A DNA stretch of 64,000 nt from positions 1 through 64,000 of the IMG/VR virus record IMGVR_UViG_3300042455_002003; one strand, given 5' to 3'. Below the pieces are notes generated by a model. It was given only the letters and a program-made list of their open reading frames with translations, was not told the DNA's origin and did not search any database. The stretch is from a virus. Position 1 is the stretch's first letter. Each line of letters starts with the position of its first letter. Both the position numbers and the translations under genes were made by a program. Below, one piece after another: positions 32,124 through 57,767 of this stretch.

Positions 32124-32516
32124 TTAATTTAATTTATTAACTTCTTTAGTGATATCCTCTATGTCATAGTCACCATTTTCCCAAGAGAATTTAAACCCAA
32201 CCTTAGAACTTTTTTCACCAAGGTTTTTTGTACTTATCCCGTATTTTTTAGCTAAGTCATTAAGTTTTTTCATAGCGGTATCTTTTTCACCAGATTCACC
32301 TTTTTCAGCCATAGCTTTTAATTTAATCATTAAACTAATGATTTTATCTTCAAGGTCTTTAGATGGTTTAAATCCTAATTTACCTCTTTCTGAATTTGTG
32401 TCCTTATCTCTATTATCACCAGCAGTTTGAAAACCTATAGCTTTTTCATTTAAAAACTTTTCTTCCAATCTTTGATTAGCTTCCTGAATTACTTTTAGTT
32501 TATCTCGTCTTTTCAT
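32124..32516 (-). CDS. DUF2786-like domain protein
   Basis: The 130-residue product has a basic N-terminal helix (KRRDKLKVIQEANQRLEEK) and a motif KLKAMAEKGESGEKDTAMKK with NDLAKKYGIS. The latter is the signature of DUF2786 proteins, small phage and bacterial proteins of unknown role. It is coupled to the upstream gene (32516 is shared as stop/start overlap). The leader-like start could make it a member of the packaged-protein set, but it does not show the final [IVL]-x-E pattern clearly. Confidence 0.6.
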   Translation of the reverse strand: MKRRDKLKVIQEANQRLEEKFLNEKAIGFQTAGDNRDKDTNSERGKLGFKPSKDLEDKIISLMIKLKAMAEKGESGEKDTAMKKLNDLAKKYGISTKNLGEKSSKVGFKFSWENGDYDIEDITKEVNKLN

Positions 32517-32944
32517 TAGTAAGAATAATTTGAACCATTTCTTCCGGCTTCTCTTACCCTCATATGCTGTTGGTACTTATCCTGTTGTTTTTGTTTTTCT
32601 TTCATTTCTTTATGTCTGGCATTATCAATAACTTGGTAATCATTAATTTTTTTCTTTAAATCCTCAAGTTTACCAATGAATTTTGTAAAGTCACTAGAAA
32701 ATGTATCTATTTCACTATGATAACCGTCAGAACCAGAAACAGCATCAGCGATACCATCTTTAAATTCTGTTTTTAAAGATTCCAAATCTCTACCTAATTT
32801 ATCAATAACACTATAAGCTGGGTGTTTTGTCATTGTTGTCTTCTTTTCAGGAGTTTTACCTTGTGAAGAATTCTCTTCTTCAGCAATAACTTTTTTAACT
32901 AACCTCTCTAAATCTTGCTCGTTAAGTTTGATTATTTTTTTCAT
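32516..32944 (-). CDS. Unknown protein with capsid-targeting-like leader
   Basis: The 142-residue product begins KKIIKLNEQDLERLVKKV and then IAEE. This leader is almost the same as the one in the gene at 42203-42481. After that come a Ser/Lys linker and two charged helices (about residues 50-110), then a Gln/His/Arg tail. No domain is known. If the leader is a capsid-targeting sequence, the protease would cut after IAE, residues 21-23, leaving the rest inside the head. Confidence 0.6.
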   Translation of the reverse strand: MKKIIKLNEQDLERLVKKVIAEEENSSQGKTPEKKTTMTKHPAYSVIDKLGRDLESLKTEFKDGIADAVSGSDGYHSEIDTFSSDFTKFIGKLEDLKKKINDYQVIDNARHKEMKEKQKQQDKYQQHMRVREAGRNGSNYSY

Positions 32945-32958
32945 TTTAATGTTTTTAT

Positions 32959-32967
32959 ATAAATATC
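32959..32967 (-). promoter_or_regulatory. GATATTTAT late promoter motif
   Basis: On the minus strand, GATATTTAT lies 14 bases before the ATG at 32944. Confidence 0.6.
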
Positions 32968-32997
32968 CCAGAAAAAAGAAAAATTTTAGGTTTACCC

Positions 32998-33029
32998 TTT
33001 GATTGATTAAAAAAAGATACTTATATTTG
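32998..33029 (+). promoter_or_regulatory. Host-type (Bacteroidetes) promoter
   Basis: TTTG at 32998-33001 and TATATTTG at 33022-33029, separated by 20 bp. This matches the Bacteroidetes housekeeping consensus (TTTG, about 19-21 bp, TAnnTTTG). It drives the plus-strand gene at 33064 independently of the flanking minus-strand operons. Confidence 0.7.
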
Positions 33030-33063
33030 TAGTGTTAACGTTTAAGAAAAAAAAACAATTTAT

Positions 33064-33804: not shown

Positions 33805-33806
33805 TA
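33697..33806 (+). repeat. Intact copy of a 110-bp repeat
   Basis: This segment (the 3' end of the moron gene plus two bases past its stop) matches 35714-35823 at about 103 of 110 bases by eye. Most differences are silent third positions or in the last codons. Confidence 0.9.
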
Positions 33807-33810
33807 CCAA

Positions 33811-33842
33811 AAAAAAGGGACTTTTTATAAGTCCCTTTTTTA
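33811..33842 (+). terminator. Rho-independent terminator
   Basis: Stem AAAAGGGACTT / AAGTCCCTTTT with a short AT loop and T run, four bases after the moron gene. On the minus strand the same hairpin can also end transcripts of the gene at 33865. Confidence 0.9.
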
Positions 33843-33864
33843 TTTTTAATTAAATAATATTAAA

Positions 33865-35229: not shown

Positions 35230-35231
35230 AA

Positions 35232-35867: not shown

Positions 35868-35870
35868 GTA

Positions 35871-36515
35871 TTATTTATAAAAATCGTTTAAAATATTACC
35901 ATTATCATCAAATAAAACCCATACACCTAAATTAACGTATTGTTCTATTTCTTCTATTTTATAATCTAATTCAGTACCATCAGCTAAATTAATAAAAGCA
36001 TCATCACCTTCTAATCTAGTCACCACCCAATAAGAATACTTATCATTATATCTAATGGGACCCAAATCAACGTCACCTCTTTTAAGTTGGGAGATTTCAT
36101 ACTCTTGTTCTAGGTCTACTAAATTATTTTCTCTATAAGTACATTTTTTACCAATAATATCATTAATTGTAAAAATAACCTCACCTCTAGCCCATTCAAA
36201 ATCATCTTCTTTAGATTCACTTAGAGATTCAAAATAAAGTTCAGTGGCTCTTTTATAAACACCGTTGTTATCTTCATCTTCTTTACCCCATAATATGACA
36301 TTATCATCATTATGAATGTCGGGTGTAATTCTATATATAGTATAGACTTTTCCTTCCACATATGCGGCACCCCCATAATAATCTGACATACTATTCCTAT
36401 TAAAACCATGTTTACAAATAAATTTATCACCGACTTGGGGTTCCCATTTTGGTTCTATTTCACGAGCCCAATCAAATTCGTCAACCTCTTCTTTTATGAT
36501 TTTTTTAAGATTCAT
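35871..36515 (-). CDS. Unknown protein with capsid-targeting-like leader and FDWAR motif
   Basis: The 214-residue product begins MNLKKIIKEEVDEFDWAREI, the same leader as the next gene upstream. It has a second copy of the short motif after the first third (DDFEWARGEV). Two SH3-like or beta-barrel stretches follow, each with several Tyr and Gly (VGDKFICKHG and TYRENNLVDLEQEYEI). The role is unknown. If the leader is cut after KEE, most of the chain would be packaged. Confidence 0.65.
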   Translation of the reverse strand: MNLKKIIKEEVDEFDWAREIEPKWEPQVGDKFICKHGFNRNSMSDYYGGAAYVEGKVYTIYRITPDIHNDDNVILWGKEDEDNNGVYKRATELYFESLSESKEDDFEWARGEVIFTINDIIGKKCTYRENNLVDLEQEYEISQLKRGDVDLGPIRYNDKYSYWVVTRLEGDDAFINLADGTELDYKIEEIEQYVNLGVWVLFDDNGNILNDFYK

Positions 36516-36516: not shown

Positions 36517-36864
36517 TTAATAATATTTTATTAAAGATAATACGTTATCTTTATCTTTCCTAGAGTATTTAACAACCCCAAGATATAAATCCATGCCACC
36601 CCAATAAGGGTCGTTTAAACTATCAATATATCTTAAAACTTGTTTTATATAGAATACAGGTCCATAAGCTATTATTGTTTCAGGAGATTCCTTACCCTTT
36701 GGTGTTGAAATAGCATAATACCCATTAACTTCATTCTTAAAATTTTGATTAGCCTCGTCAGTATTTAACTCCCCATCAAAATCAAACTCATTGGTTATAA
36801 TACTTTTTTTGGGAATCCAATCAAAATCATTAATCTCTTCTTTTATAATCTTACGTAGATTCAT
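36517..36864 (-). CDS. Unknown protein with capsid-targeting-like leader
   Basis: ATG at 36864 is chosen over 36909 because it lies just after a late-type motif and gives the same start as the neighbour (MNLRKIIKEEINDFDWIP). The 115-residue product then has an acidic linker and a beta-alpha domain ending in LYLGVVKYSRKD. The preceding gene's 3' end overlaps its 5' end by four bases. Confidence 0.65.
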   Translation of the reverse strand: MNLRKIIKEEINDFDWIPKKSIITNEFDFDGELNTDEANQNFKNEVNGYYAISTPKGKESPETIIAYGPVFYIKQVLRYIDSLNDPYWGGMDLYLGVVKYSRKDKDNVLSLIKYY

Positions 36865-37654: not shown

Positions 37655-39454
37655 TTATCTTAATTCTCTTACGTCAAATGTACGTAAACCGTCTACACGG
37701 ATATGGCCGTAAAACCTGTTGTTCACCATTTTTTTGGCGTAACGAGTCATGATACCTTTAACAGGTACAAAGTTAAACGGATTGTACATTGTAGGTGTTA
37801 ATTGTAGAGGTACATACGGTGCGTAGATGTAACCTGTGTCTAACAATGATTTTCCTTTGTGTCCAATCAATACAGAGTATGCTGGTGCGTAAGGGTCACG
37901 GTAGATAGTATATCTTCCTGAAAGTGAACCTACTCTTTCGATACCCATGTTATATTGGTCTTGCTCAGGAGAAGCGTTAGATACGTGGAAGTATTCTAAA
38001 TCATCAAAAACAGCAGATACTTCAGAAGATACAACTACGAAGTTAGCTCCACCTCTCAATGTAGCTTTGTGAATTTGTGCTGAGATTTGGTTGATAGCTG
38101 TTACTAACGTTTGGTTCCAGTCTTTTTGAGTGTAACCGTTGTTGTTAGGTAGTCTCTTCCATCCGTTGTAATCCCAACGTAATTGCCATGCTGCACCTGT
38201 ACGTAAGTCACGTAAGATTTCACGGTCAATTTCTGCCGCAACTTGCTCAGAAAGTAATGCTGTCAATTCAGCTTCAGCGTCGATGTTGTGGAATGCACTA
38301 ACATCTTGTGCTAATTCAGGAGTCCAAGTAGCTCTTAGTTTTCTTTCAGTTACAGATACCGTTACAGAATCTAATTCGAAAGAAACTTCACCCATTTGAG
38401 ATTCCATTTCTAAGTCAGCGTATTGTCTATAAGTGATAACAAAACTAACACCACCTAATGTAGATACACCAACTCCAGGTACGATAGATGTATTACCAGA
38501 TTGAGCTCCGATATAACCATCAAATGTACCTGATGAACAAGTAATACACTTAGGGTGAGTTAAATCTACTTCAAGATACATAATACCTTCACCAGTACAA
38601 ATATCACCATAATTAACAATACCTTTACCATATCTTTGTGTTACAACTCTTACAGGAACTTCATCACCTGGAGCGTAAATAACTTCACCATCTTTATCTT
38701 TAAGACTACCACCACCGACAGTAACAGCTAAAGAAGCTAAGAAAGCCTCAGTATCCATTTCATTTCCATCAGGACCTAAAAGTCTACCTTGACCATTATT
38801 GTTAAATCCTGTTAATTCAAGGATTTGAGTTCTAACAGAACCGTCACCAGCAAAAGCTGATACACCATCTGTAAATTCGTTACCTGTTGTACAAGATGTC
38901 CAAATAACTGGTACACCGTTAGTAACAACTAAAGTGATTTTACCTTTTGATTGGTCATATAAACCATCATTGTAAAATCTATCGTAAAGATTTTTAGCAC
39001 ATTCTACATATGTAGTCTCAGGACAAGTTGCGTTATCTACAGAAAGACAAGGTGTAACGATTGGTTCACCGTGCTTATAAACTGTGCTTTCACCTTCAGT
39101 AGCTTCGATTCTTTCAGAAATCTTAGGTACAAAGTAGAACAATTTACCGATAGGTAAGTTCAACGCTTGTACAGACACGATGTCGTTAGCTAATAATTTA
39201 GAGAATACACGTCTTACGATAGGGAAAACTACAGTTTCAAAAGAACCAGTAGATGCACCACCCGATGTGTCAGTCTCATTGATAAGAACAGATGCTTGGT
39301 TTTCATACAACAAAGCCATATTCTCACGTACATGTCCTGTAAGTCCTTCTAAGAACCCAAGGTCATTCCATTTGTTTACAGTTGCCTCACGGATAGCTTT
39401 TTGGTGCTTTAATCCGATATTACCAACCTCTCCAGATTTTAATAAATATCCCAT
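37655..39454 (-). CDS. 23: Major capsid protein (T4 gp23-like)
   Basis: The 599-residue protein matches the gp23 layout: WNDLGFLEGLTGHVRENMALLYENQ in the N-terminal propeptide; then VFPIVRRVFSKLLANDIVSVQALNLPIGKLFYFVPK, the start of the capsid core in gp23; and near the C-terminus YAPYVPLQL and RYAKKMVNNRFYGHIRVDGL. A candidate cleavage site for the prohead protease is I58-N59-E60, giving a new N-terminus Thr61. T4 gp23 is cut at a similar place (LTE, then Ala). Codons are richer in CGT and C-ending codons than in neighbours, as expected for the most highly made protein. Between residues 130 and 270 an insertion with several Cys is present. Confidence 0.93.
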   Translation of the reverse strand: MGYLLKSGEVGNIGLKHQKAIREATVNKWNDLGFLEGLTGHVRENMALLYENQASVLINETDTSGGASTGSFETVVFPIVRRVFSKLLANDIVSVQALNLPIGKLFYFVPKISERIEATEGESTVYKHGEPIVTPCLSVDNATCPETTYVECAKNLYDRFYNDGLYDQSKGKITLVVTNGVPVIWTSCTTGNEFTDGVSAFAGDGSVRTQILELTGFNNNGQGRLLGPDGNEMDTEAFLASLAVTVGGGSLKDKDGEVIYAPGDEVPVRVVTQRYGKGIVNYGDICTGEGIMYLEVDLTHPKCITCSSGTFDGYIGAQSGNTSIVPGVGVSTLGGVSFVITYRQYADLEMESQMGEVSFELDSVTVSVTERKLRATWTPELAQDVSAFHNIDAEAELTALLSEQVAAEIDREILRDLRTGAAWQLRWDYNGWKRLPNNNGYTQKDWNQTLVTAINQISAQIHKATLRGGANFVVVSSEVSAVFDDLEYFHVSNASPEQDQYNMGIERVGSLSGRYTIYRDPYAPAYSVLIGHKGKSLLDTGYIYAPYVPLQLTPTMYNPFNFVPVKGIMTRYAKKMVNNRFYGHIRVDGLRTFDVRELR

Positions 39455-39484: not shown

Positions 39485-40762
39485 TTAGTGTTTATATTCG
39501 TATTCCCACAATCTTTTCATATTTTCTAGTTGGGGGTCTACATAAACTTTTGATTCAGTAATTTGTGTTGATGAACCACTACTTTTAGTATCATTGAATT
39601 TATTTTCAATAGATTCTTTGATTGGAGCTTTAGTTTTAGAAATTTCTTTAACTAAATTTTTGTAGATATTTTTAGATTCTTTAAGAGTTTTTGCCTCATC
39701 AAATCTTTTGATGATATCCACCTTCTCGTCTTTAGTAGTTGAGTGTTCAGTAAACAATCTTACTGTGTATGTAAGGTTGCTATTAAAGATAGCTACCTCA
39801 TTTAATTTATTTCTGAACTCTTTAAGAGCGTCGACCATTTTGTTATAGTCTTCTGTTAAACTCTTATTTTCAGAATTGATAGAACTAACTTTGTTTTTTA
39901 GAACTTTGTTTTCAGTCATTAACTGTGTAACTCTTGGTGTTGTTGATTCTCTCATACCTAATTTTTCACGGTTTGAGTTCATGTCAGATGATTTACGATT
40001 CCCAACTTTTCCAGCTTTAGATAATGTACGAGGCATTCTACCTTCTTCCATTTCACCATCTTCATCCTTAGATTTATCAGACATGTATTTATCAGACATG
40101 TATTCATCATCATCACCTTCTTCATCTTCAGATAAATGAATTTCGTAGATAACTTCTTCACCCATTCTATTAAAGGCTTCATCATCTTCGTTTTCTTCAT
40201 CATCAAACATATCTTCTTCATCATCAAACATGTCTTCTTCATCATCAAACATTTCAGTGTCGTCAGAACCACCAAGTTCTATTCTGTACTCAGCACCAGT
40301 TGCGTTATCTTTGATTTCAATGTTACCTCCGTCTTGAACAACCTCGATTTCATCTTCTGGGCTCATTTTTTTGAACACATTAACTACTTTCTCGATATCT
40401 TCCTCACCCGTAAGGTCTACAACATCTACATCATCATCGTCCTCGTCATCTAAATCTAAACCATCAAGGTCGTCATCATCGTCCTCGTCATCTAAATCTA
40501 AACTGTCAAAGTCGAATTCTTCATCGTTACCAGCACCTAAGCCGGCTACATCAGAGTCATTGTCTAACTCTAAATCCACATTCTCTTCATCTTCGTCTTC
40601 TGTTAAGCCACTCCAATCTCCTAGAGATTCTTTTACCATTTCCTCAATTTCTAGACTCATTGTATGAGCTAGTATTTCTTTCGCGTTGGCTTTGAAAGCA
40701 TTGTCTATGTGCTCCGCTTCCATAAAAGCTTCATCGATGATAGACTTTCTTGTTTCAGCCAT
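39485..40762 (-). CDS. Prohead core/scaffold protein (gp22-like)
   Basis: The 425-residue product is very acidic up to about residue 230, including tandem copies of EDMFDDEE and EYMSDK. After that it has a long coiled coil (about residues 275-350) and ends in NMKRLWEYEYKH. High charge, helices and position directly upstream of the capsid gene match the T4 order 21-22-23, in which gp22 is the main core scaffold. Several I/L-x-E sites offer cleavage by the protease. The sequence itself is not closely like T4 gp22. Confidence 0.75.
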   Translation of the reverse strand: MAETRKSIIDEAFMEAEHIDNAFKANAKEILAHTMSLEIEEMVKESLGDWSGLTEDEDEENVDLELDNDSDVAGLGAGNDEEFDFDSLDLDDEDDDDDLDGLDLDDEDDDDVDVVDLTGEEDIEKVVNVFKKMSPEDEIEVVQDGGNIEIKDNATGAEYRIELGGSDDTEMFDDEEDMFDDEEDMFDDEENEDDEAFNRMGEEVIYEIHLSEDEEGDDDEYMSDKYMSDKSKDEDGEMEEGRMPRTLSKAGKVGNRKSSDMNSNREKLGMRESTTPRVTQLMTENKVLKNKVSSINSENKSLTEDYNKMVDALKEFRNKLNEVAIFNSNLTYTVRLFTEHSTTKDEKVDIIKRFDEAKTLKESKNIYKNLVKEISKTKAPIKESIENKFNDTKSSGSSTQITESKVYVDPQLENMKRLWEYEYKH

Positions 40763-40900: not shown

Positions 40901-41329
40901 ATGAAGTATCTTATGTCCGACATTGTAAATCAAATTCTAAGTGAAAGAATTGAAAAACCTCATTTAACAGAAAAAAATGGGGATTTAGAAGAAATCAAAT
41001 TCTTAAAATCTTCTATAGAAAAAAAATTAAAAAATGTTTATCGGGAGATAACAGGCAAAGAATTAACCCTACCTAACATAGAGATTAATATAGATAACTC
41101 TATTAAAAAAGGGAAAATAGCTGGTTTTAATCATCCTAAAAATGGTGAAAACGCAGAGATGGGTATTAAAGAAAAGGCTTTAAAAGATAAGGAATATCTA
41201 AAATGGATTATAGTACATGAATTAATACATGCGTCCGTTGGGGAAGATTTACCACAAAGTGATGAACATTCGGGTTTATTTAAAAAATTAGCTGATAGAA
41301 TGGGATTACCTAAAGAATACCAAGATTAA
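40901..41329 (+). CDS. Zinc metallopeptidase (HExxH), possibly packaged
   Basis: The 142-residue product has a metallopeptidase core: WIIVHELIHASVGE (HELIH 106-110) and DEHSGLFKKLADRMG (H123 as third ligand). This spacing is that of SprT-like or similar small metallopeptidases. The N-terminus (SDIVNQILSERIEK) is a short basic helix like the capsid-targeting-like leaders, so it may enter the head. It is on the plus strand within the minus-strand head block and has its own late motif. Substrate unknown; cell-wall or capsid-protein processing are possible. Confidence 0.72.
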   Translation: MKYLMSDIVNQILSERIEKPHLTEKNGDLEEIKFLKSSIEKKLKNVYREITGKELTLPNIEINIDNSIKKGKIAGFNHPKNGENAEMGIKEKALKDKEYLKWIIVHELIHASVGEDLPQSDEHSGLFKKLADRMGLPKEYQD

Positions 41330-41678: not shown

Positions 41679-42203
41679 TTAATTATCACTAAATCCTGAA
41701 CCAAAAGAACTTCTACCATGACCAGCCAATCTATGTTTAAACTCATGACCAGTAATTTGTAATTGTTCACCAAACTTATGTAAAGAAGGTAATAAATCAA
41801 TTAATAATTGTTTTATTTTTTCGGTGAAAACTTCATCATTACCCATAGCGTCTGAAAAATTAGAAAGAACATCTACTCTTCTCTTGAAAGTGTTTAGTTT
41901 TTTAATCATGCTTCTAGCATCTCTAATTAAATCGTCTTCAGTAAATTCGTTTATAACGGTTTCAACCTCTTTGATAAGAGAACCAATAACTTCAGAAGTT
42001 TCACTTAAATAACTTATAAAATCATTCTTTGAATGTCCATCCACCACAGCATTAGCTAAACCTTCGATAACGAGTGTTAAGTCATTATATACGTTAGCTA
42101 AAGTAGTCATAGAAACTCCGGCATGAATAGACATGATATTTTTATCATCATACCCACCAACTTCCTTAAGTAATTCTTCTTTTATAATTTTACGAATATT
42201 CAT
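41679..42203 (-). CDS. Unknown helical protein with capsid-targeting-like leader
   Basis: The 174-residue product begins MNIRKIIKEELLKEVGGY. The rest is long amphipathic helices without Cys, with a His/Gly/Ser tail (KHRLAGHGRSSFGSG). The ATG overlaps the stop codon of the gene upstream by one base. It lies between the protease and the scaffold gene, where T4 has head core genes. Confidence 0.65.
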   Translation of the reverse strand: MNIRKIIKEELLKEVGGYDDKNIMSIHAGVSMTTLANVYNDLTLVIEGLANAVVDGHSKNDFISYLSETSEVIGSLIKEVETVINEFTEDDLIRDARSMIKKLNTFKRRVDVLSNFSDAMGNDEVFTEKIKQLLIDLLPSLHKFGEQLQITGHEFKHRLAGHGRSSFGSGFSDN

Positions 42204-42481
42204 TAACTTAAAGTTTTTAAAGCTTGTTTAAATTTCACACCAAAACCACCTTTTAAATCCATTTGTTTTAATAATGTCATTATAATATTAACTTGTTCGT
42301 CAGCTGATTTAGATTTTAATGTTGTAAGCAACTGATTAAAAACTGTTGAGTCTAACACTTTTCCAGTTTTTGCTTCTGAACCTTGTGACATTTCCTGACC
42401 TCCTTGTTCACCTTCTTCTCTAATAATTTTTTGAACTAATTTTTCCAAATCAGCTTCGTTTAATTTAATTACTTTTTTCAT
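42203..42481 (-). CDS. Small protein with capsid-targeting-like leader
   Basis: The 92-residue product begins KKVIKLNEADLEKLVQKI and then IREE, nearly identical to the leader at 32516-32944. After that a Gly/Gln/Ser/Glu linker and one helical domain (about residues 45-90) follow. It follows the prohead protease gene across an unusual GC-rich spacer. Confidence 0.65.
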   Translation of the reverse strand: MKKVIKLNEADLEKLVQKIIREEGEQGGQEMSQGSEAKTGKVLDSTVFNQLLTTLKSKSADEQVNIIMTLLKQMDLKGGFGVKFKQALKTLS

Positions 42482-42551: not shown

Positions 42552-43319
42552 TTATAGTAAAAATTTATTTAAATTGTTTAATAATTTAGATTCATTTTCA
42601 GATAAATATAGGTTATCTGCTATTATATTTGAACTACTATTTAATAAATCCATTTTTTTATTAGTAGATTCCGTATAAGGTTTAAGGTCATTCTTATCAG
42701 AAGAAATCCAAGAACCTGGAGTTGATGGTGAAGTTACAATATCCCAACAGATTAACTCAAAGTCATCTTGAACTACATTCTTACCACCTTCATTTTTAAG
42801 TGAACCTACACCTCTAGATGAGATACCTACGGTCCAACCTTTTCTAATCATATTAAGAACTTTATCACCAACTGATGAAATAATTCCCATTTTATGATAT
42901 CCTGGTGTTGTATCTAATTCTAATGTACCCATTAGAGTTTTGCCTTCCCACCATAATTCAGTTACCATATGTGATACCCTTTCACCATCAATAATAGATG
43001 ATTCTGGGTGGTTTAATTCACCCAAAGAAGTACCCATTTTGATAAACTCTTGGTATCTTTTAGCTTCTCTTTCTAAGATATCTTTAGGGTAGACCCTACC
43101 GTTTTTATTTTCTACACCCCACTTTTGTAGTACGGCATATATTTCAATTTTTTCAGGTAAAGGCCCGTCCATAGTGAAATTCATTCCAGACTTAAATTCT
43201 CTAATTAAATTAACGTTTGAACAAACGCCATCTTTGCAAGTTAATTCAGGTTTAATATACCCTGAATCATATTCAACTAAAAAACCTGTACCTTCTTCAC
43301 CTGGTTTTAATATTTTCAT
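42552..43319 (-). CDS. 21: Prohead protease (T4 gp21-like)
   Basis: The 255-residue protein has NKNGRVYPKDILEREAKRYQEF (71-92), SLGELNHPES (98-107, candidate catalytic His104), GWTVGISSRGVGSL (161-173, candidate Ser167/168), and CWDIVTSPSTPGSW (191-204). These are the conserved blocks of the T4 gp21/prohead protease family (S78-like serine proteases). It would cut scaffold, capsid and internal proteins after [ILV]-x-E. It lies two operons upstream of scaffold and capsid genes, as in T4. Confidence 0.92.
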   Translation of the reverse strand: MKILKPGEEGTGFLVEYDSGYIKPELTCKDGVCSNVNLIREFKSGMNFTMDGPLPEKIEIYAVLQKWGVENKNGRVYPKDILEREAKRYQEFIKMGTSLGELNHPESSIIDGERVSHMVTELWWEGKTLMGTLELDTTPGYHKMGIISSVGDKVLNMIRKGWTVGISSRGVGSLKNEGGKNVVQDDFELICWDIVTSPSTPGSWISSDKNDLKPYTESTNKKMDLLNSSSNIIADNLYLSENESKLLNNLNKFLL

Positions 43320-43392: not shown

Positions 43393-43830
43393 TTATTTTT
43401 TTGTTTTATAAAATTCAAAAGTTTCGTCTTTTTCAAAGACATCTGATATTATTTTTTGAGATATGGACTCAATCATTGGTTTCATCTCATCTGAATTTAT
43501 AGGTAAAAATGGTTCTTTTTTAAATAAAGTTATTTCAACCGACATAAAACTTCTTTTATCAAAATTAATACCTGATGAAGCCATATTAAAATCTACTATT
43601 GATTTTGTTTTGTGGAATTCGGTATCGTTTAAAATTTCAAACAACTTACTTTTTACTCTTTTTGATTTTTTCTTAATGATATTATCGTAATTTTCTAAAC
43701 CATACTCTTTAGGTTTTCCCCACGCGGATATTTGGATATAAATAGATTTAGGTTCTTTGTTATCTACTGTACCCGATATTACGTTATATTGGTATGGGGT
43801 TTCTACTCTCATTTCTTTACCTCTTTTCAT
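43393..43830 (-). CDS. Unknown protein coupled to glutamine synthetase
   Basis: The 145-residue product has several beta strands (SIYIQISAWGK, FMSVEITLFKK) and a helical C-terminal third. The start at 43830 overlaps the synthetase stop by one base. A later ATG gives MRVETPYQY and is an alternative start. No family is recognised. It shares the transcript with glutamine synthetase, so a linked role is possible. Confidence 0.6.
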   Translation of the reverse strand: MKRGKEMRVETPYQYNVISGTVDNKEPKSIYIQISAWGKPKEYGLENYDNIIKKKSKRVKSKLFEILNDTEFHKTKSIVDFNMASSGINFDKRSFMSVEITLFKKEPFLPINSDEMKPMIESISQKIISDVFEKDETFEFYKTKK

Positions 43831-46382: not shown

Positions 46383-48287
46383 TTAGCTACCAAGTATTTC
46401 ATCATCACCTTCATTAAGTAACAAATCTATACCCTTAGTCATCATTAAAATATCTTCATTTTTCTTTCTACCTTCAAGTAATAATTTATTAATTACATTC
46501 TCATCACCTCTAAAGCTTTCACCAAAACCACCAACTTCTTCACCTCCTCCAGCTTCTTCACCGCCTCCAGCTTCTTCACCGCCTCCGAAACCTCCAAAGC
46601 CTCCAGCTTCTTCACCACCTCCTAAACCTCCAAAGCCTCCAGCTTCTTCACCGCCTCCAAAGCCTCCAGTTTCTTCACCACCAGTTTCAGTCCCAGCCGT
46701 TTCATCTGATTTAACAGGAATTTCACCATAAAGTTTATCAACGTTCTTAAAGAATCCTGTGTTTTTGATAATTTCAGCAGTATTTTCAAGTTCCTTAGCT
46801 GCCGCTCTTTCAAGTCTTTGTTGTTCTAAATCTTCTAAGATTTCATCATTAGACCAATTAAAGATATTTTTTTTAGCCCATGTGTGTGATGTTGGAGCAA
46901 TTCCACCATCAACAGCACTAACAAGGTCTTTATACAACAAAACTTTTTCTTTCCATTGTTCAACTTTAAGAACTTCACCTTGAGTAGATGGATTGTTAAG
47001 GACTAGTTTAAAATTATTTAACTCATCGTGGAAACCTAAAATATATAAATGGATAATAGCTATTTTATTTAACTCTTGAACCATAGCCTGTTGAATTCTA
47101 TTTATGGTCCTAGCAAATCTAATATCTAACATAGCTAAATTACCACCCTCACCAACGACATCATCAAAACCTAGGAAAGTTTTTGGTACTCTTAATGCTG
47201 TAACCATTTTTCTTTGGATAAATTGAATATCTGCAATTTGGTCTAGGTTAGACGCACCCGCCAACGTTTCAATTGGACTAGAAGCGTTAGCATCTCTTAC
47301 AGGTACAAAGTAATCTTGGTCAACTGCCAAAGTATTATATCTTAAATCTACCTGACCTGTTTGACTATCAGCTTTTTGTGTTCTTTTAAATTTATTAGCA
47401 ACTTTTTGTACGTAAGCTTCAACATCATTATCATCAATGTTACCTACATAAACTTTAAATACTCTTCTTTCAGGTGCTCTAGTTACACGATAAACTAACA
47501 TAGCGTCTTCTGCTAAAAGAAGTTGTTTCCATATTCTCCTTACTTTCTCTAATACCGAAGTACCATAAGGTAATTTTCTATCATCACCTAAAAGTCTAAA
47601 ATGAGCTATTTCCCAAGCGTTAAACTCCATGGTTTTATCTCTCCAAAAGAATTTAACTTGTTTTTTCTGTGTTTCTTCTTTTGTTTCTTCTTTTTGAGCT
47701 TGAAAAGGGAATACGCCTGTTTCTTTTCTTTCAATATCAATATTTGTTAATTGAGAAGAACCAACAATACCATCCCTGTAATCTATTTTTAAATAAAGAA
47801 AGTTATCACCGTATTTACATGTATTTCTAGTCCACATCGGTAAATTTGAGTGGATGTCCATTACATTAAAGAATAAATCTTCTAAAACTTTTTTAATTCT
47901 AGATGAATCAGAATAAACACTTAAAATTTTACCTTGTTCGTTTAATGTACAAGATTCTTCTGACATAATATCTAAAGCGACAGCAATTTCAGGGGTAAAC
48001 TCCATTGCCTCGTAATCCATATAAGAGGCAACCCTAGAAGTTTCATAGTAAATCGCTTTTTGATATAATTCACTATCTACTTTAGCCCATTGACCTTCTA
48101 AGTATTTTTGTTGTTGTCTTTGTAATTTTTCTTTCTCAAACTCCTCTCTGGACTTTGTAACAATTAAATCTCTATCACCTAAAGCGTATTTGTTATATAT
48201 GGTATTGGCTTTTATACCACCATTACCTTGACCAAAAAGGTAAAAGAGTTTTTGATATACCGTTAAATTTTTATTTTCTTCTGCCAT
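46383..48287 (-). CDS. 20: Portal protein (T4 gp20-like)
   Basis: The 634-residue protein has gp20-type segments: SRVASYMDYEAMEFTPEIA, CKYGDNFLYLKIDYR, WEIAHFRLLGDDRKLPYGTSVLE, LAEDAMLVYRVTRAPERRVF, and FLGFDDVVGEGGNLAMLDIRFARTINRIQ. These form the clip, wing and stem regions of a dodecameric portal through which DNA is packaged. At the C-terminus (about residues 530-595) there is a low-complexity Gly/Glu/Ala/Phe repeat with several copies of GGGEEAGGFGG, which is unusual for gp20. Confidence 0.93.
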   Translation of the reverse strand: MAEENKNLTVYQKLFYLFGQGNGGIKANTIYNKYALGDRDLIVTKSREEFEKEKLQRQQQKYLEGQWAKVDSELYQKAIYYETSRVASYMDYEAMEFTPEIAVALDIMSEESCTLNEQGKILSVYSDSSRIKKVLEDLFFNVMDIHSNLPMWTRNTCKYGDNFLYLKIDYRDGIVGSSQLTNIDIERKETGVFPFQAQKEETKEETQKKQVKFFWRDKTMEFNAWEIAHFRLLGDDRKLPYGTSVLEKVRRIWKQLLLAEDAMLVYRVTRAPERRVFKVYVGNIDDNDVEAYVQKVANKFKRTQKADSQTGQVDLRYNTLAVDQDYFVPVRDANASSPIETLAGASNLDQIADIQFIQRKMVTALRVPKTFLGFDDVVGEGGNLAMLDIRFARTINRIQQAMVQELNKIAIIHLYILGFHDELNNFKLVLNNPSTQGEVLKVEQWKEKVLLYKDLVSAVDGGIAPTSHTWAKKNIFNWSNDEILEDLEQQRLERAAAKELENTAEIIKNTGFFKNVDKLYGEIPVKSDETAGTETGGEETGGFGGGEEAGGFGGLGGGEEAGGFGGFGGGEEAGGGEEAGGGEEVGGFGESFRGDENVINKLLLEGRKKNEDILMMTKGIDLLLNEGDDEILGS

Positions 48288-50547: not shown

Positions 50548-52491
50548 TTATCTATTTTTTAAGATATCTCTAATTTCTGAAGCAAATTCATAGTCCTCAT
50601 CTTCAATAGCTGACTTCATTAAACCTCTAAGTTCATCATCAGTCATATCATTAAGGTCTTTAGGTTCTTCAGGACCCTCTTTTTCACCACCTAAAACAGT
50701 AGGGTTAGTTTCTTCTTCATCCTCATCAGGAGTTTCTACATCACCACCATCTTTATCATCATCATCACCGTACATACCAAAAGTATCGTCGGAAGCTTCA
50801 CGTCTTAACTCTTCAGCCGCTTCTTCAGCTATTCTTTGAACTTTCATTTGTGAATCTGTTCTATCATTTGATAATCCCTCAATAATACTATTAAACTCAT
50901 CATCTGAAAGTTCTTGCATCATATTCCATGTCAAAGAAATAACTTCTTGATTATCAGTTGGTATTTGTCTTACAAATTTTTCCCAAAAGATAGTACCTAA
51001 TCTAATATCATTAGTTTCATTATCTAAATTATCAGTTTTATCTAGGACATATTTTCTTTCTTCAGCATCAACAGGTAGGGACCATAAAGACATTAATTCA
51101 ATAACACCTTTAGCCAATTCATGTAAAAGTACTGGGAATACCACACCTTGTGCAATAATTTTAGGAACTCCATTAGGTTGGTCAGATAATTTAACTCTAA
51201 CATTACCTGCGTGAATACCTTGTCTACCCTGTGTTTTAATGTCTTCATCATTCATCATCCAGTAAGAAGCGTCATTTGCAGCCATAAGATTAGCGTAGTT
51301 TTGACTCAATCTAGGATTCTCCTGTCTTAATTGGTCGTCCATGTGGTGAATGTTTTGTGACTTTCTAGCCGCACCGTGCATCATAGCGTTAGTGTACTTT
51401 CTTCTTTTAATTTTAGGTTTCATTTGTACCTCAGTTTTTCCTTGTGGAACAGGACTAGTACCTTTATCAAATTTAAGACCTTCTCTTTGTATATCACCAA
51501 TCTTAACACCCAATTGTCTAGACATTTGGTTTATAGTTGCCTGTGGGGTACCACTAGGTAAACCTAACGCTTTTTGTGGGACACCTGTTATGGTCGCATC
51601 AAATTCAACAGCACCTTCAGGGATGTTGAATTGTTTACGAATCATTTCAACAGCCTTTGTTTCTAATCTGTCGATACCGTAAGCGTATTCTTCTTTAGCC
51701 GCATTCATCAATGAACTAGACATTAATTGTTGAACATCATCAAAAGTAACTCTTTCTTTACCTGTTTTTTGTCTAATAGCTCTAGCTATTTCTTCAAAAG
51801 ATTGATTAGCCATTTGTTTAGCTAAATCTGAACCTAACAATTCAGAATACTCATTTGTACCACCTTCAAAACTACTGTTTACGTCTCTATTCATATCCGC
51901 TTCAAATATTAATTTATTTTGTATCGACTCAACAATCTTAGCTTTTGTCATTATTGGATTTTGAGTCTCTACAATGATATTAATAATATCTGATTCAGAC
52001 AAATCAATTTTGGAATAGTTTTCAACAATAGATTTAAAATCTTTTGCTTTTATAATTCTACTTTCACGCATACCACTTTCCATGTCTTTTATATAATCTT
52101 CTTTTTGTTTAATATAATCTTCTTGGTTTTTTATAGATTCTTCCTGATTTTTTATGGCTTGTTCTTTTTCTTTATTTTGTTGTTTTAAACCATTCACTTG
52201 TTTTGTAAGAACTGGTTTTTGTCTTGTTAAAGCATCTGCTTGTGTTTTTGGGTCGGTAACGTCTTCTGCTTTATTACCTTGTGCTATTACTTTATTATTA
52301 CCCTGAATTGCTGATAATTTAGTATCTACGTCAACTTCAGATGCCTTTAAAGTTTCTTTATTTACCTCTAAAGATTTTTTATTATTTTCTAAATTTTGTT
52401 TCTCTTGTTCCAAACTTTCTTCGGCAGATTTAAGTACAGCTTCCTTATCCATCTCATCAGCTTCTCGTAAAAAATATTTTTTTCTCATCAT
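50548..52491 (-). CDS. Large coiled-coil virion protein with C-terminal UVR-like motif
   Basis: The 647-residue product begins MMRKKYFLREADEMDKEAV, possibly a short leader, followed by a coiled coil up to about residue 140. The centre (about 190-500) is a globular part with FPVLLHELAKGVIELMSL. An acidic linker (about 570-615) follows. The C-terminus is MTDDELRGLMKSAIEDEDYE, then FASEIRDILK, which is close to the UVR motif of UvrB and ClpC. The function is unknown; position and acidic linker suggest a virion or packaging protein. Confidence 0.6.
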   Translation of the reverse strand: MMRKKYFLREADEMDKEAVLKSAEESLEQEKQNLENNKKSLEVNKETLKASEVDVDTKLSAIQGNNKVIAQGNKAEDVTDPKTQADALTRQKPVLTKQVNGLKQQNKEKEQAIKNQEESIKNQEDYIKQKEDYIKDMESGMRESRIIKAKDFKSIVENYSKIDLSESDIINIIVETQNPIMTKAKIVESIQNKLIFEADMNRDVNSSFEGGTNEYSELLGSDLAKQMANQSFEEIARAIRQKTGKERVTFDDVQQLMSSSLMNAAKEEYAYGIDRLETKAVEMIRKQFNIPEGAVEFDATITGVPQKALGLPSGTPQATINQMSRQLGVKIGDIQREGLKFDKGTSPVPQGKTEVQMKPKIKRRKYTNAMMHGAARKSQNIHHMDDQLRQENPRLSQNYANLMAANDASYWMMNDEDIKTQGRQGIHAGNVRVKLSDQPNGVPKIIAQGVVFPVLLHELAKGVIELMSLWSLPVDAEERKYVLDKTDNLDNETNDIRLGTIFWEKFVRQIPTDNQEVISLTWNMMQELSDDEFNSIIEGLSNDRTDSQMKVQRIAEEAAEELRREASDDTFGMYGDDDDKDGGDVETPDEDEEETNPTVLGGEKEGPEEPKDLNDMTDDELRGLMKSAIEDEDYEFASEIRDILKNR

Positions 52492-52971: not shown

Positions 52972-55248
52972 TTATGAGAACTTAACGTCACCTTCATTAT
53001 TATTAGGCCTTTTGAATGGATTACTGTCAGGTCTTTGAGGTTTTTCAAATGGATTACGGCCAGGTCTTCGAGGTTTGGGATGAGATGGCTTAGATGTTTT
53101 ATCTTCATCCCCCATAGGTTTTTCAAATGGATTACGGCCAGGTCTTCGAGGTTTGTCATGAGATGGCTTAGATGTTTTATCTTCATCCCCCATATAACTC
53201 ATATAACTTCTTCTACCTCTAGCTTTTGGACCTGGTTCTTCTCCTGGCGTAATGTGAGGAGGTGGATTAAAAGGCCTTCTAGATGGTCTATCCTTATCAG
53301 GCGTTTTAGTCGGCGTTCCAGGAACTGTCTCAGTTCCACGGTCAGGTTTTTCAGGTTGTTTTGCTGGAGCCGGAGCCATTGTAGGGTCATAATTATTTAA
53401 TCTTCTACCTCTAGCTTTTGGACCTGGTTCCTCACCTGGCGTAATATGTGGGGGAGGATTAAACGGTCTTCTAGAAGGACGTTCTCTATCAGGTGTTTTA
53501 GTAGGTGTTCCGGGAATTGTTTCAGTTCCACGGTCAGGTTTTTCAGGTGCTTTTTCTCTTTGGGGTCCCATATCTTTTAATTTTCCTTCTTCGTCAAAAG
53601 TTTCGTCAAAATCTGATAAAGAGTCAACTGGTTCACCAATAAAATGTCTACCTCTCATTGTACCAATTTCAAGACTACCAATAGAGTTAATTCTAGCCTT
53701 TAATAATTTTTTACTACCGTCTTTGATATCAAAATAGATTGTAGATTCTTCAGGGTCTTCTGTTTTATCAGCGTGACAAAGACTTAGTGTAAAACCATAT
53801 TCCGATGCCATATCCGACAAATCTTGGTAAGCAATTTCTTGTTCATATGTCTCAAATTTATCTGTTACATCAGACATATAATTACCATATCCACGATTCA
53901 TGTTATTATTTTCTGAATACTCTAAATTAGGATTATTTCTCATATTTAGGTTTAAACCATATAAATTTTCATCATCATAATCTAATAATAATTCACCATC
54001 AACCATATTCTCATCACCACCAATATGAGGGTTGTCTTCTCCCATGTATGATTCGTAAGAAGGTGTTGAAACAAATCCAGCCATTTCCATATCCAGCAAC
54101 CAATTATCTAATTCTGAATCTGAATAACTTTCTTTTTTCTCTTTCATGTAAGAATCGTGTGTACCATCACCCATATATCTACGATAATTACTTGTGTCAT
54201 TAGGATTTATAAATTTTCCTTCACCCTCACACCATTCACAAGTTTCATCAGTGAATTCATCATAACCCGAACCATTACAATGTGTACATGATTTATCGTC
54301 CATATAAGACATATAAGAAGATTCCTCTACAGGTTCCTCATCACCAAAATCAAAAGACTCTTCATCAGATTCTTCAGGTTCTTCTTGTGATTTCTTTTTT
54401 ATTGTACGAATAATATCTTTTTTATCTTCAGAATCCATATTTTCTAAATCCATAGCAGATAAAACTGATTTAGCAACCCATTTTTGCATATCAGAAGATA
54501 AATCCTCGACATCTCTAATTTGTTGACCCAATTTACCTGTGGTACTTTGAATATCTTTGATATCATCATCACCAAATTCTTCTACATCAGTATCGTCTTC
54601 TTCGGAATCAACTCCCTCATCGTCTCCACCAAAATCAAATTCACCGTCTCCTGTATCTTCAGTATCATCACCGAAGTCAAATGAATCATCACCAGTATCT
54701 TCAGTATCTTCATCTCCACCGAAGTCAAATTCACTATCCCCCGTATCTTCAGTATCATCACCTCCACCAAAGTCAAAACCACCTTTATCAGAAGTTTCCT
54801 TTTCTTCAGAGTCTCCACCAAAGTCAAAACCACCTTTATCAACTTTTGGTTCAGCTTTTGGTTCAGTTTTTTTGTTTTTTAATTTTAAAATAAATTTTTT
54901 CTCATTTAAAACATCTGATTCTAACAAATTAACATTATCTACATTATAGTGATTATTAATTTCTTCAAACATTAAATTTAAATGTTTAACCGCCTCTTCA
55001 TAAGAATAAAAAGATTTTTTTCCCTTATTAACTATACCACCAATGTAATCAAAATCAGATTCATTGATATTATTTTTAGAATCAGCGTTCTTTATATAAT
55101 ATTTATTTTGTTCTCTTACAACAGCATATATTTTACCGTTTACAGATTCTTTAACCAATTCAAAATTAGATAGACTCATCTTTTCTTCTTTAATCACTGG
55201 TTTAATGTTAGAGAGTTCCAACATTCTATTTAATAATTTTTTATTCAT
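52972..55248 (-). CDS. Large repeat-rich virion protein with DnaJ-type zinc finger
   Basis: The 758-residue product begins NKKLLNRMLELSNIKPVIKEE, a possible leader. Residues about 135-225 are an acidic repeat (GGFDFGGD and FDFGDDTED units). Around residues 315-350 there are two CxxCxGxG units (CTHCNGSG and CEWCEGEG), as in DnaJ zinc fingers. A globular part follows (about 400-540). The C-terminal third holds two near-identical 50-residue blocks (PDRGTETxPGTPTKTPD, then RRPFNPPPHITPGEEPGPK) and two 26-residue blocks (GDEDKTSKPSH, then KPRRPGRNPFEKP). The acidic repeat and basic Pro-rich tail suggest DNA or protein binding inside the head; the role is unknown. Confidence 0.7.
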   Translation of the reverse strand: MNKKLLNRMLELSNIKPVIKEEKMSLSNFELVKESVNGKIYAVVREQNKYYIKNADSKNNINESDFDYIGGIVNKGKKSFYSYEEAVKHLNLMFEEINNHYNVDNVNLLESDVLNEKKFILKLKNKKTEPKAEPKVDKGGFDFGGDSEEKETSDKGGFDFGGGDDTEDTGDSEFDFGGDEDTEDTGDDSFDFGDDTEDTGDGEFDFGGDDEGVDSEEDDTDVEEFGDDDIKDIQSTTGKLGQQIRDVEDLSSDMQKWVAKSVLSAMDLENMDSEDKKDIIRTIKKKSQEEPEESDEESFDFGDEEPVEESSYMSYMDDKSCTHCNGSGYDEFTDETCEWCEGEGKFINPNDTSNYRRYMGDGTHDSYMKEKKESYSDSELDNWLLDMEMAGFVSTPSYESYMGEDNPHIGGDENMVDGELLLDYDDENLYGLNLNMRNNPNLEYSENNNMNRGYGNYMSDVTDKFETYEQEIAYQDLSDMASEYGFTLSLCHADKTEDPEESTIYFDIKDGSKKLLKARINSIGSLEIGTMRGRHFIGEPVDSLSDFDETFDEEGKLKDMGPQREKAPEKPDRGTETIPGTPTKTPDRERPSRRPFNPPPHITPGEEPGPKARGRRLNNYDPTMAPAPAKQPEKPDRGTETVPGTPTKTPDKDRPSRRPFNPPPHITPGEEPGPKARGRRSYMSYMGDEDKTSKPSHDKPRRPGRNPFEKPMGDEDKTSKPSHPKPRRPGRNPFEKPQRPDSNPFKRPNNNEGDVKFS
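53038..53193. repeat. Two tandem 78-bp repeats
   Basis: 53038-53115 and 53116-53193 differ at two bases by eye. Together they encode two copies of a 26-residue basic block. Confidence 0.92.
53208..53549. repeat. Two ~148-bp repeats in the 52972 gene
   Basis: Copies start near 53208 and 53402 and end near 53355 and 53549. They encode the 50-residue Pro-rich block and differ at scattered third positions. Confidence 0.85.
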
Positions 55249-55261
55249 CTTCTATTTTTTT

Positions 55262-55549: not shown

Positions 55550-55565
55550 AATTTTCTTTTTCTAT

Positions 55566-55574
55566 ATAAATATG
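55566..55574 (-). promoter_or_regulatory. CATATTTAT late promoter motif
   Basis: On the minus strand, CATATTTAT lies 16 bases before the ATG at 55549. Confidence 0.6.
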
Positions 55575-55597
55575 TTTAATCTTCAATAAACCACCAA

Positions 55598-56815
55598 TTA
55601 CCGTTTAAAATCTTCTACTGATTCGACTAAAGGGCCCGTATAATCTATAATTAATTTATACACCCCTTTAAAATAATCGTTTTCTATCCAATTGATTAAG
55701 TCTTCTTTATACTCAAATTCAGGAATACTTACAAATCCTAAATGTCCGTAATCATCACCGTAATTTTCATCATAATTTACTGGTACATTATCAGCACCAT
55801 CCCAATAAGGTGTTGCAAAAATAAATAAATGTGGTACATCTTGATTTCTCCATTCAACAACTCCTTGAAAACCGTCCCAAATAACAGACCAACCCTTATA
55901 AACGGGTTTTTCTTTTTTAAAATATTCACCAACTATATCATATTCAGCACTTCTATATGGTTGTTTTTCTATTAATGTTTTTGTTTCTACATCTTTTATC
56001 CATTTAAATGGGTCATCTTCAATTGATTCTAAAAGGGAATCAATTTTTTTTGACTCACGCATTGATTCTAGTGTTACCGATTTATCGTAAGCAACTGTCT
56101 TAATATCATACAATCTATCCAACATTCCATTTCTACGTAAAACTTTGAAAACAATATTTTCTACTGAAAATTCACCACCAGACTCTAAACCTGATTGACG
56201 CATTTTTTTAATTTTTTCCGTTAATTTTTCAACACCTTTAACAGCAACATCATAATCACCATCATTTAACTCATCATATAAATCTTCAATACGGTCCATA
56301 ATTCCGTTAGCCTTATCTTTTACAGATTTATCGTTAAAATTAATTTTCTTGTTTTGTGGTTTTGTTACCCATTCATTATTTAATATTGAATAAACTCCTG
56401 TTGAGTGGTGTGATTCATTTATATCTTGTACATATAATTCAACGTCATAATCATAAATTTTAACGTCATGTTCCTTATTCCAATTAGAGCTTTTAGATTT
56501 AAAAAAATCTTGTACTAAATCTTCATCAACAGGGACATCTTTATAATCGATTATAATATGTAAATCAACGTCAGAGTATTTTGACCAATTATAATTAGCC
56601 AAACTACCTGTAATACAAACATCTTCAATGTCAACCCCAGGTATTTTTAAACTCTCAAAATAATCATCAGCTATTTTTAAAAGATTTTTTTTAACTTCGG
56701 GTTTCATTTTTTGATTTTCATCCCAAATTTTAGGATTTAATTCATCATTCATTGTAAAACCACCCAAGTCAATTTTTCTATTAGCTTTTTCGACTTCTTT
56801 TTCATTTATATTCAT
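55598..56815 (-). CDS. Nucleotidyltransferase-like protein
   Basis: ATG at 56815 is chosen because upstream ATGs overlap the late motif, and the resulting spacing of four bases is seen at other genes. The 405-residue product has ITGSLANYNWSKYSDVDLHIII near residue 65, the GSxxxxxxxxxSDxDL motif of the nucleotidyltransferase fold (two Asp ligands). A third Asp candidate is in KIYDYDVELYV. Then come a helical domain and a C-terminal alpha-beta domain (PHLFIFATPYWDG). It may transfer a nucleotide to a small molecule, RNA or protein. Relatives in other phages are usually labelled only by domain. Confidence 0.68.
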   Translation of the reverse strand: MNINEKEVEKANRKIDLGGFTMNDELNPKIWDENQKMKPEVKKNLLKIADDYFESLKIPGVDIEDVCITGSLANYNWSKYSDVDLHIIIDYKDVPVDEDLVQDFFKSKSSNWNKEHDVKIYDYDVELYVQDINESHHSTGVYSILNNEWVTKPQNKKINFNDKSVKDKANGIMDRIEDLYDELNDGDYDVAVKGVEKLTEKIKKMRQSGLESGGEFSVENIVFKVLRRNGMLDRLYDIKTVAYDKSVTLESMRESKKIDSLLESIEDDPFKWIKDVETKTLIEKQPYRSAEYDIVGEYFKKEKPVYKGWSVIWDGFQGVVEWRNQDVPHLFIFATPYWDGADNVPVNYDENYGDDYGHLGFVSIPEFEYKEDLINWIENDYFKGVYKLIIDYTGPLVESVEDFKR

Positions 56816-56819
56816 ATTC

Positions 56820-56839
56820 ATAAATATCATGATATTTAT
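56820..56839. promoter_or_regulatory. Bidirectional late promoter: perfect 20-bp palindrome
   Basis: ATAAATATCATGATATTTAT is its own reverse complement. It gives a GATATTTAT motif to the divergent genes at 56815 (minus) and 56849 (plus) with starts 4 and 9 bases away. Confidence 0.65.
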
Positions 56840-56848
56840 TAAATGATA

Positions 56849-57430
56849 ATGAGAAATACAATTAAGAAAATATTAAAAGAAGACAACGATTTTGATTGGG
56901 TTAGGGAATCTGAACCAACCTCAAAATCTGAAATAGCTAATAAACTATCTAGATTTGATGATTTTGGTTTTTATATTTTTAATACCGAAACTAGTCCTTT
57001 AGTTAATTCTATTTATAATCTTGGTTTAAACACTATACAATTAGATAGTTTAATTAAATCATTATATGAATTTGGTTATAATGCTTATGAAAGGGGTATA
57101 GATACAGGGAGTCAAAATGGTTATAGTGAAGGTGAATCCCAAGGGTATGATATGGGTCATCGTGATGGATATTCTGAAGCTAAACGGGATATGGAAGATA
57201 AGTTAGAAGAAAAATACGAGAAAGGTTATGACGAAGGTTATGACGAAGCTATCCAAGACGGATATCAAAAAGGTTACGAAGAGGGGGTTGAAGCAACTTA
57301 TTATAAAGCCTTTGAAGAAGGTAGAGCTTATGAAGCTGGGTTAGATGTAGAAGATTTTGAAAGAAGAGAATCTGGATTTGACCCTTCTGACTATGATGAA
57401 GATTATGATGAAGACTACAATGAAAATTAA
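56849..57430 (+). CDS. Unknown protein with leader and Gly-Tyr helical repeats
   Basis: ATG at 56849 (MRNTIKKILKEDNDFDWVRE) is chosen because it gives the same leader pattern as other genes; 56843 is also possible. The 193-residue product has a central region (about residues 85-150) with a repeated four-residue step: GYSEGESQGYDMGHRDGYS and KGYDEGYDEAIQDGYQKGY. Gly and Tyr every four residues suggest helix packing, as in Yae1-type motifs. The C-terminus is acidic (DYDEDYDEDYNE). Role unknown. Confidence 0.65.
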   Translation: MRNTIKKILKEDNDFDWVRESEPTSKSEIANKLSRFDDFGFYIFNTETSPLVNSIYNLGLNTIQLDSLIKSLYEFGYNAYERGIDTGSQNGYSEGESQGYDMGHRDGYSEAKRDMEDKLEEKYEKGYDEGYDEAIQDGYQKGYEEGVEATYYKAFEEGRAYEAGLDVEDFERRESGFDPSDYDEDYDEDYNEN

Positions 57431-57434
57431 TAAT

Positions 57435-57767
57435 ATGAGAAGAAAAAATATTATACTAACAGAATCACAGTTACAAAGATTAACTGAAATAAGAATTCAG
57501 GAATATACTGCAAATGAAATTGTAAATATTTTAAGTTCCATTGATTGTACGGGGGAAAGTGTAAAAACCCTAGTATCAAGAAAATTATCCGAACTAGGGT
57601 TTGAAGAGATTACAATTAAATTTTTAGGTTACGGTGGTATATCAGATGAACTTAAATATATTGTTTACACTGAAGGACCTGTTTTTGTTTTTATTGCGAA
57701 AAGTAAGTCAGATGTTAACCCTCCATGTATGGATATTGTAGATGTAGTATCTTACACAAAAAATTAA
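57435..57767 (+). CDS. Unknown small protein with leader-like start
   Basis: ATG at 57435 (MRRKNIILTESQLQRLTEI) is chosen; an earlier frame start at 57357 lies inside the previous gene. The 110-residue product has a helical leader ending RIQE and a small alpha-beta domain (FEEITIKFLGYGG, then YIVYTEGPVFVFIA). It converges with the minus-strand gene at 57764, and their ends overlap by four bases. Confidence 0.6.
   Translation: MRRKNIILTESQLQRLTEIRIQEYTANEIVNILSSIDCTGESVKTLVSRKLSELGFEEITIKFLGYGGISDELKYIVYTEGPVFVFIAKSKSDVNPPCMDIVDVVSYTKN

Follow-up and report, generated by a model that had tools for sequence, protein, structure and literature searches.

Short N-terminal leaders ending in [ILV]-x-E as probable prohead-protease propeptides in a group of uncultured T4-like phages

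The window analysed here is a stretch of 64,000 nucleotides that covers most of a virus record of 66,632 bases (IMG/VR record IMGVR_UViG_3300042455_002003), and the element in question is a family of short N-terminal leaders ending in [ILV]-x-E that is found on several of its predicted proteins. The minus strand of the window carries a T4-type head gene block, in which terminase, portal, head maturation protease and major capsid protein were assigned by PHROG matches and a probable scaffold by its position. The gp21-type head maturation protease (42552-43319, minus strand; phrog_207, E 1.2e-41) is the proposed cutter of the leaders, and the claim of the original prediction, made from the DNA letters and their open frames, that this phage encodes a gp21-like protease is thereby confirmed. 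The gp23-type major capsid protein (37655-39454, minus strand; phrog_138, E 1.1e-62) contains a predicted maturation site, VLINE60/T61 (here and below, a slash marks the predicted cut), and the portal protein is encoded at 46383-48287 (minus strand; phrog_213, E 1.1e-58). The product of 39485-40762 (minus strand) gave no PHROG match; its position, in the place of gp22, and its N-terminus, MAETRKSIIDE/A, which resembles the T4 gp22 start MLKEQLIAE/A, make it the probable prohead scaffold.

Three classes of leader were distinguished, namely a long leader with an inner L/I-T-E (class A), a short basic leader (class B) and a short relative of class A (class C, MKIIITE/SQYK). The original prediction named eleven starts with a leader of this kind; each is an ATG codon in an open frame, and the N-terminus agrees with its description there. 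Six of them (32944, 36515, 36864, 42203, 42481 and 56849) are strong, two belonging to class A and four to class B. The class A leaders are MKKIIKLNEQDLERLVKKVIAE/ (leader 32879-32944, gene 32516-32944, minus strand) and MKKVIKLNEADLEKLVQKIIRE/ (leader 42416-42481, gene 42203-42481, minus strand); the latter gene and 41679-42203 (minus strand; class B leader MNIRKIIKE/, 42177-42203) lie between the protease and scaffold genes, and for the class A gene the same holds in the close strain L002. The other three class B leaders are followed by FDW: MNLKKIIKE/ (leader 36489-36515, gene 35871-36515, minus strand), MNLRKIIKE/ (leader 36838-36864, gene 36517-36864, minus strand, in a frame that opens at 36909) and MRNTIKKILKE/ (leader 56849-56881, gene 56849-57430, plus strand, in a frame that opens at 56843). 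The FDW pointed out in the original prediction is therefore present, close behind the leader, at 36515, 36864 and 56849, and the same arrangement was found in L002 and in two proteins of the related record G008. The other FDW rows (23 rows in all over the loci compared) place it farther from the leader or in unlike proteins, so that FDW looks like a local trait and was rejected as part of a general tag. On direct reading, leaders of classes A and B have charges along their whole length and lack the hydrophobic core that follows the basic start of a Sec signal peptide.

The frequency of such N-termini was assessed with a strict pattern, [ILVM][KRQ][KRNQ][ILVM][ILVM]xE, counted in the first 30 residues of proteins and in internal 30-residue stretches. 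The window's record gave 6 of 77 N-termini against 1 of 566 internal stretches (Fisher p 1.6e-5), and with this enrichment the family of short leaders can be regarded as real. The corresponding figures were 55 of 2160 against 34 of 15024 in 13 related records (p 9e-28) and 50 of 1184 against 18 of 9593 in 80 capsid-centred loci, many of which are mutually related and among which 12 of the records recur as the same contigs. The controls gave 0 of 475 N-termini against 6 of 3010 internal stretches in 42 random viral loci, 0/70 against 1/377 in a T4 stretch, and 1/52 against 1/433 in an immuto stretch, and the pattern therefore belongs to the phage group of the window. Five of the 13 related records, however, contain only one or two such N-termini (G001 2/502, G004 1/212, G005 1/146, G006 1/89 and G009 1/129), so the trait is uneven within the group.

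The motif might still be too loose, so that in most short-leader calls an [ILV]xE would stand by chance in an ordinary basic N-terminus. The loose class B pattern called 135 of 2313 genes against 165 of 7366 internal methionines, with several starts tried per gene, which favours genes somewhat in all class counts; at this background of about 2%, an individual class B call is uncertain. The proteins that fit the class B pattern include the ClpB-like one at 58407-60890 of the window, despite its ordinary Clp N-domain start, and one class A/C call was obtained among 70 T4 genes. In contrast, classes A and C together were called in 69 of 2313 genes and at only 3 of 7366 internal methionines, with none among 475 control genes, and the strict-pattern counts as well as the junctions kept in the GSYxAP and RYMFF families (see below) also oppose a chance origin. 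The controls indicate that chance is a false explanation for classes A and C, and some of the weak class B calls are likely due to it; as an explanation of the leaders as a whole, it is very improbable.

A degenerate DNA pattern for the class A tag (LTE-S-D-L-x-R-I-V-K-R-V), run over IMG/VR, matched at least 80 loci. All 88 matches listed begin at residue 6-8 of an open frame, and are thus N-terminal. The tag was found on at least 78 distinct proteins, which fall into at least 55 unrelated body clusters, so that the sharing of a leader by otherwise unrelated proteins, as originally proposed, holds well beyond the window; the metallopeptidase that had been given as an example is a weak member, with the motif only. 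In the 78 listed proteins P1 is always Glu and P3 always hydrophobic (I71/L3/M3/V1), both positions lying outside the search pattern, and conservation drops immediately behind the P1 Glu. The pattern had no match in 84,980 bacterial and archaeal species genomes (genome_contigs), nor did its codon-reversed version in IMG/VR. In the isolate phage collection, no match was found for the 23-residue tag, where the low-complexity filter may hide matches, for the RYMFF body or for one tagged peptidoglycan-binding protein.

A single tag on many bodies, and the clustering of tagged genes (for example, 8 of the 18 called genes in locus L234), could also be the outcome of leaders spreading by recombination as DNA cassettes, composed of the start region and the first codons, without any function as peptides. 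The search pattern sets codon positions 1 and 2 of the class A leaders, and only third positions and upstream DNA are informative. Third-position identity is 0.60, versus 0.42 expected from composition, and therefore some leader copies are related at the DNA level. However, the leaders of 71 class A genes occur in 69 different DNA versions encoding 29 peptides, and the DNA upstream differs little from its composition value, save in an A-rich stretch just ahead of the start codon. In addition, P3 and P1 are constant though outside the pattern, and mutually unlike leaders keep the junction alone. Spread of functionless cassettes is therefore considered extremely improbable.

The strongest evidence for a tag comes from the swapping of leaders in comparisons within protein families. 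The GSYxAP family, encoded beside the capsid gene, provided 48 distinct N-termini from 101 of the 160 loci examined (some loci being the same contig). These N-termini carry 36 different leaders, ranging from MSKRINE/ and MKNNKIHINE/ up to MYRDRLEEDVRNWYFKKPINE/, with [ILV]xE before Ala, Gly or Val in 48 of 48 (47 by pattern and one, L384, by eye). The GSYxAP frame often holds two more modules, and [ILV]xE stands ahead of module 2 in 34/34 distinct junctions (by eye) and ahead of module 3 in 45/45. One record, G002, encodes module 3 as a gene of its own, whose class B leader reads MIIDDTIKKILRE/DLAVWFG. The motif is thus present at the module borders and is kept when the module is a separate gene, as would fit a polyprotein whose modules are predicted to be cut apart. 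A GSY protein matched two isolates, in the module 3 part only; one such homologue, gp50 of Pelagibacter phage HTVC027P (L419:3950-4213), has no recognisable leader. In the GSY-type frames of four loci (L053:7109-8428, L071:12183-13142, L034:5381-6055 and L039), the class A motif is found within the frame or at the C-terminus, as if a tag could work at either end.

In the RYMFF family, five class A and nine class B leaders precede one and the same kind of body; P3 is [ILVM] in 14/14 members, and the Glu (14/14) is the sole invariant column ahead of the body. The predicted fold of RYMFF is poor (mean pLDDT 57.7), with leader residues 2-13 helical. The third family, APIDY, belongs to the head block. 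After removal of 5 of its 26 rows as cut or unclear, 20 complete N-termini from beyond the window remained for comparison, and [ILVM]xE was found at the junction in 18 of the 20 (partly by eye).

The same motif occurs in the capsid protein, where [ILM][NTS]E precedes a conserved FETVVFP in all 81 sequences compared, those of the window and of 80 loci (93/93 if 12 records are counted twice). The P1' residue of this site is Ala in 54 sequences, Ser in 17, Thr in 7, and Gln, Gly and Asn in one each. In the immuto group, Flavobacterium phages whose annotation includes a gp21-type protease, the capsid protein is without the FETVVFP anchor but has QIVSE/AN. Among the matches listed there are 26 tagged records of at least 70 kb, G002 being left out as already known; the phrog_207 protease is present in 18 of them and the gp23 family in 15, and all 15 records with a capsid gene also have the protease. 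The eight listed tagged records without protease are also without a capsid gene, and may be fragments. The protease was further found in 18 of 20 capsid relatives and in none of 13 random contigs of at least 30 kb (out of 42; five reach 70 kb or more), a small control.

A comparison with T4 internal proteins I-III (IPI-IPIII) was part of the original prediction. The exact cut positions in T4 IPI-IPIII, gp22 and gp23 are presumably those marked by a slash in the following. As read from NC_000866, IPII and IPIII begin with MKTYQEFIAE/A, and the sites are ITE/A in IPI, LIAE/A in gp22 and FLTE/A in gp23. According to PMC9026906, gp21 cleaves after L/I-X-E, ten IPIII residues suffice for targeting, and Alt is processed at both ends. 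The present leaders fit this rule, being likewise short, N-terminal and ended by [LI]-x-E, with V and M also found at P3. By eye, the I-x-E end is all that they share with the T4 leader MKTYQEFIAE; our claim is therefore that they work like a capsid-targeting sequence (CTS), and no common descent of the leaders is claimed.

In PMC9026906 and PMC3012670, the T4 CTS of IPI-IPIII and the Alt propeptide are likewise described as short N-terminal stretches on unrelated bodies, cut by gp21, in a phage which encodes that protease and a capsid protein with a like site. Unlike the T4 sequences, the present leaders are basic, form several interchangeable classes and reach 22 residues; the richest record tags dozens of genes, and the motif also divides a polyprotein. 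In SPN3US (gp245) and phiKZ (gp175), to judge from the available parts of PMC10052503 and PMC9026906, a gp21-related protease also cuts after Glu behind a short motif, as proposed here, and many proteins are packaged, some with short N-terminal propeptides (20 and 24 residues); the SPN3US propeptides are, however, mostly long (111-254 residues), and those parts mention no common portable leader on many genes. In phage P1, 30 N-terminal residues of DarB are enough to bring a reporter into the head, and PMC9024508 describes the Dar N-termini as without consensus, whereas the present tag is common to many genes and has a constant end. The kind of element, a targeting propeptide cut by gp21, is thus already known. 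In the part of the open-licence PMC literature covered, no description was found of these classes of leader, of how widely they are spread or of the polyprotein, nor were the strings LTESDL, RIVKRVI and KIIITESQ.

Taken together, the leaders are probably propeptides that the prohead protease takes off, and most likely capsid-targeting sequences that work as in T4 but are used far more widely. The predicted cut after [ILV]xE is well supported by the alignments, and targeting is proposed because the tag is common to unrelated bodies and has a precedent in T4. The leader, which in class B would be a short amphipathic helix of basic character and in class A a longer version of it, would bind the prohead core and bring the body into the prohead. 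During head maturation, the gp21-type protease would cut behind the leader after [ILV]-x-E and would also trim the capsid protein at [ILM][NTS]E/. The body would then stay in the head with the DNA and would probably be ejected into the host; some cargo appears to be made as a polyprotein whose modules are separated by [ILV]xE. Packaging and ejection are what we infer. The tag with its N-terminal place and spread, the constant Glu and hydrophobic P3, the swaps at a fixed junction, the capsid motif and the co-occurrence with the protease were all obtained by sequence comparison, and by that measure the original prediction is supported in part: the portable tag, the protease, the capsid motif and the leader swaps agree with it.

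Most tagged bodies have no assignable function. When 75 of the 78 listed class A proteins were compared with Pfam, 7 matched PG_binding_1 and 2 LysM; an endolysin PHROG was matched by 7 of the 75, and PADLOC gave one weak hit to each of four families. A Pfam search of 122 further class A/C proteins (136 listed, 14 left out) yielded superoxide dismutase, lysozyme, LysM, peptidoglycan-binding and SET domains, an annexin-like stretch and a dUTPase, the last of which may be a false pattern call. The Fe/Mn superoxide dismutase (L174:16228-16872, in a T4-like contig) has a class C leader and the start MKIRITESQYNLILE; if packaged, it would be a virion-borne antioxidant. The SET domain protein (L131:16449-18695) has 748 residues, a class C leader and a DHH match below the cut-off. 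Two tagged proteins (L238:778-1875 and L243:234-689) have GTNE/GTDE stretches resembling annexin repeats, and one A6 member matches Pfam Annexin (E 8.1e-5). In the large record G002, 385 genes gave 18 class A, 9 class C and 25 class B calls, about 8 class B calls being expected by chance.

This cargo bears on another explanation, in which the leader is an uncut docking helix for the tail, the cell envelope or another phage complex and the Glu is a mere helix end. Several tagged bodies, a minority, are peptidoglycan-binding, LysM or lysozyme-like, fitting a role at the cell envelope too. The P1' residue behind class A leaders is mostly Gln, Asn, Glu or Ser and that of the capsid and GSY families mostly Ala; in G002, moreover, most tagged genes are distant from the head genes. 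A docking helix would not, however, account for the same [ILV]xE at internal module junctions without a preceding leader helix and at the capsid site, for the exchange of class A for class B leaders on the same body, in which the Glu is retained, or for the protease in each of the 15 listed tagged records with a capsid gene. This explanation is judged unlikely, although the peptidoglycan-related cargo and the differing class A P1' leave room for another destination.

The differing P1' and the peptidoglycan-related bodies weigh against cleavable capsid-targeting propeptides, and so do several other points. T4 itself is not enriched in the strict pattern, and the pattern is sparse in the five related records listed above. 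The richness of scaffold-like proteins in [ILV]xE is weak (mean z 0.85, n=52), and a clear excess was rejected on this ground. A regular position of tagged genes between protease and scaffold was rejected as well: both ends of this interval were found in 24 of 80 loci, and only 2 of these 24 (L002 and L003) have a tagged gene there. When all homologous pairs of the collected proteins were screened automatically for swapped leaders, the result was 8/95 families, versus 6/95 at a shifted position, without clear excess, and swapping is therefore clear only in the families named above. Among APIDY proteins, L026 and L029 have TKE at the junction, and the window member (50548-52491, minus strand) has no Glu in the aligned column; LIFE197/A stands five residues further, outside that column, and FLRE/A at its start, MMRKKYFLRE/A.

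The five weaker starts of the original prediction fared unequally. At 8078, 46356 and 55248, relatives have proteins that begin alike and carry [ILV]xE at a comparable place (by eye); the assignment of 40913 and 57435 is by the motif only, and several of these weak members are doubtful. The first is MKLYSLLSNIILE/ (8078-8464, plus strand), on a protein with a weak WYL match and similar starts in G002, G004, G005, G006 and G016; the protein at 52972-55248 (minus strand) begins with MNKKLLNRMLELSNIKPVIKE/, with similar starts in G002 and G003. The leader MNFGTLKDIFVE/ (45556-46356, minus strand) belongs to a protein with no PHROG or Pfam match, encoded between portal and protease, the place of T4 gp67/gp68. 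The gene at 40913-41329 (plus strand; frame opens at 40901) encodes a SprT-like metallopeptidase (PF10263, E 4.1e-6) starting with MSDIVNQILSE/, and 57435-57767 (plus strand) starts with the class C-like MRRKNIILTE/SQLQRLTE. Further sites, absent from the original list, are the scaffold start at 40762, the capsid-protein site and the leader at 32516, which is MKRRDKLKVIQE/A (gene 32124-32516, minus strand) and has a counterpart in G008, where a body of that kind starts with MRRQDKYKVILE/A (by eye).

Other genes of the window were also observed. The head block contains a glutamine synthetase (PF00120, PF03951) between portal and protease (43830-44909, minus strand), and a GDP-mannose 4,6-dehydratase is encoded at 19886-20941 (plus strand). 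The product of 8464-9045 (plus strand) had the highest [ILV]xE excess of the window proteins tested (12 versus 4.9 in shuffles), and might be a core-like substrate.

What a phage carries in its head and injects is usually established on cultured phages, through mass spectrometry, and a tag with a constant cut site would allow the head cargo of many uncultured ones to be predicted. We see about an even chance that a widespread uncultured T4-like group loads its heads by means of a general, portable tag, borne by up to about one tenth of the genes (in G002, the richest record), and also with polyproteins that are cut at this motif. If this is true, the virion would deliver dozens of proteins, including peptidoglycan-binding and lysozyme-like proteins, superoxide dismutase and metallopeptidases, and the cargo list of a virus could be read from its genome. 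The swapped leaders would be a natural experiment separating recognition from the cut site. The tag would also lead to new proteins of anti-defence and host takeover, and protein delivery would gain additional loading tags.

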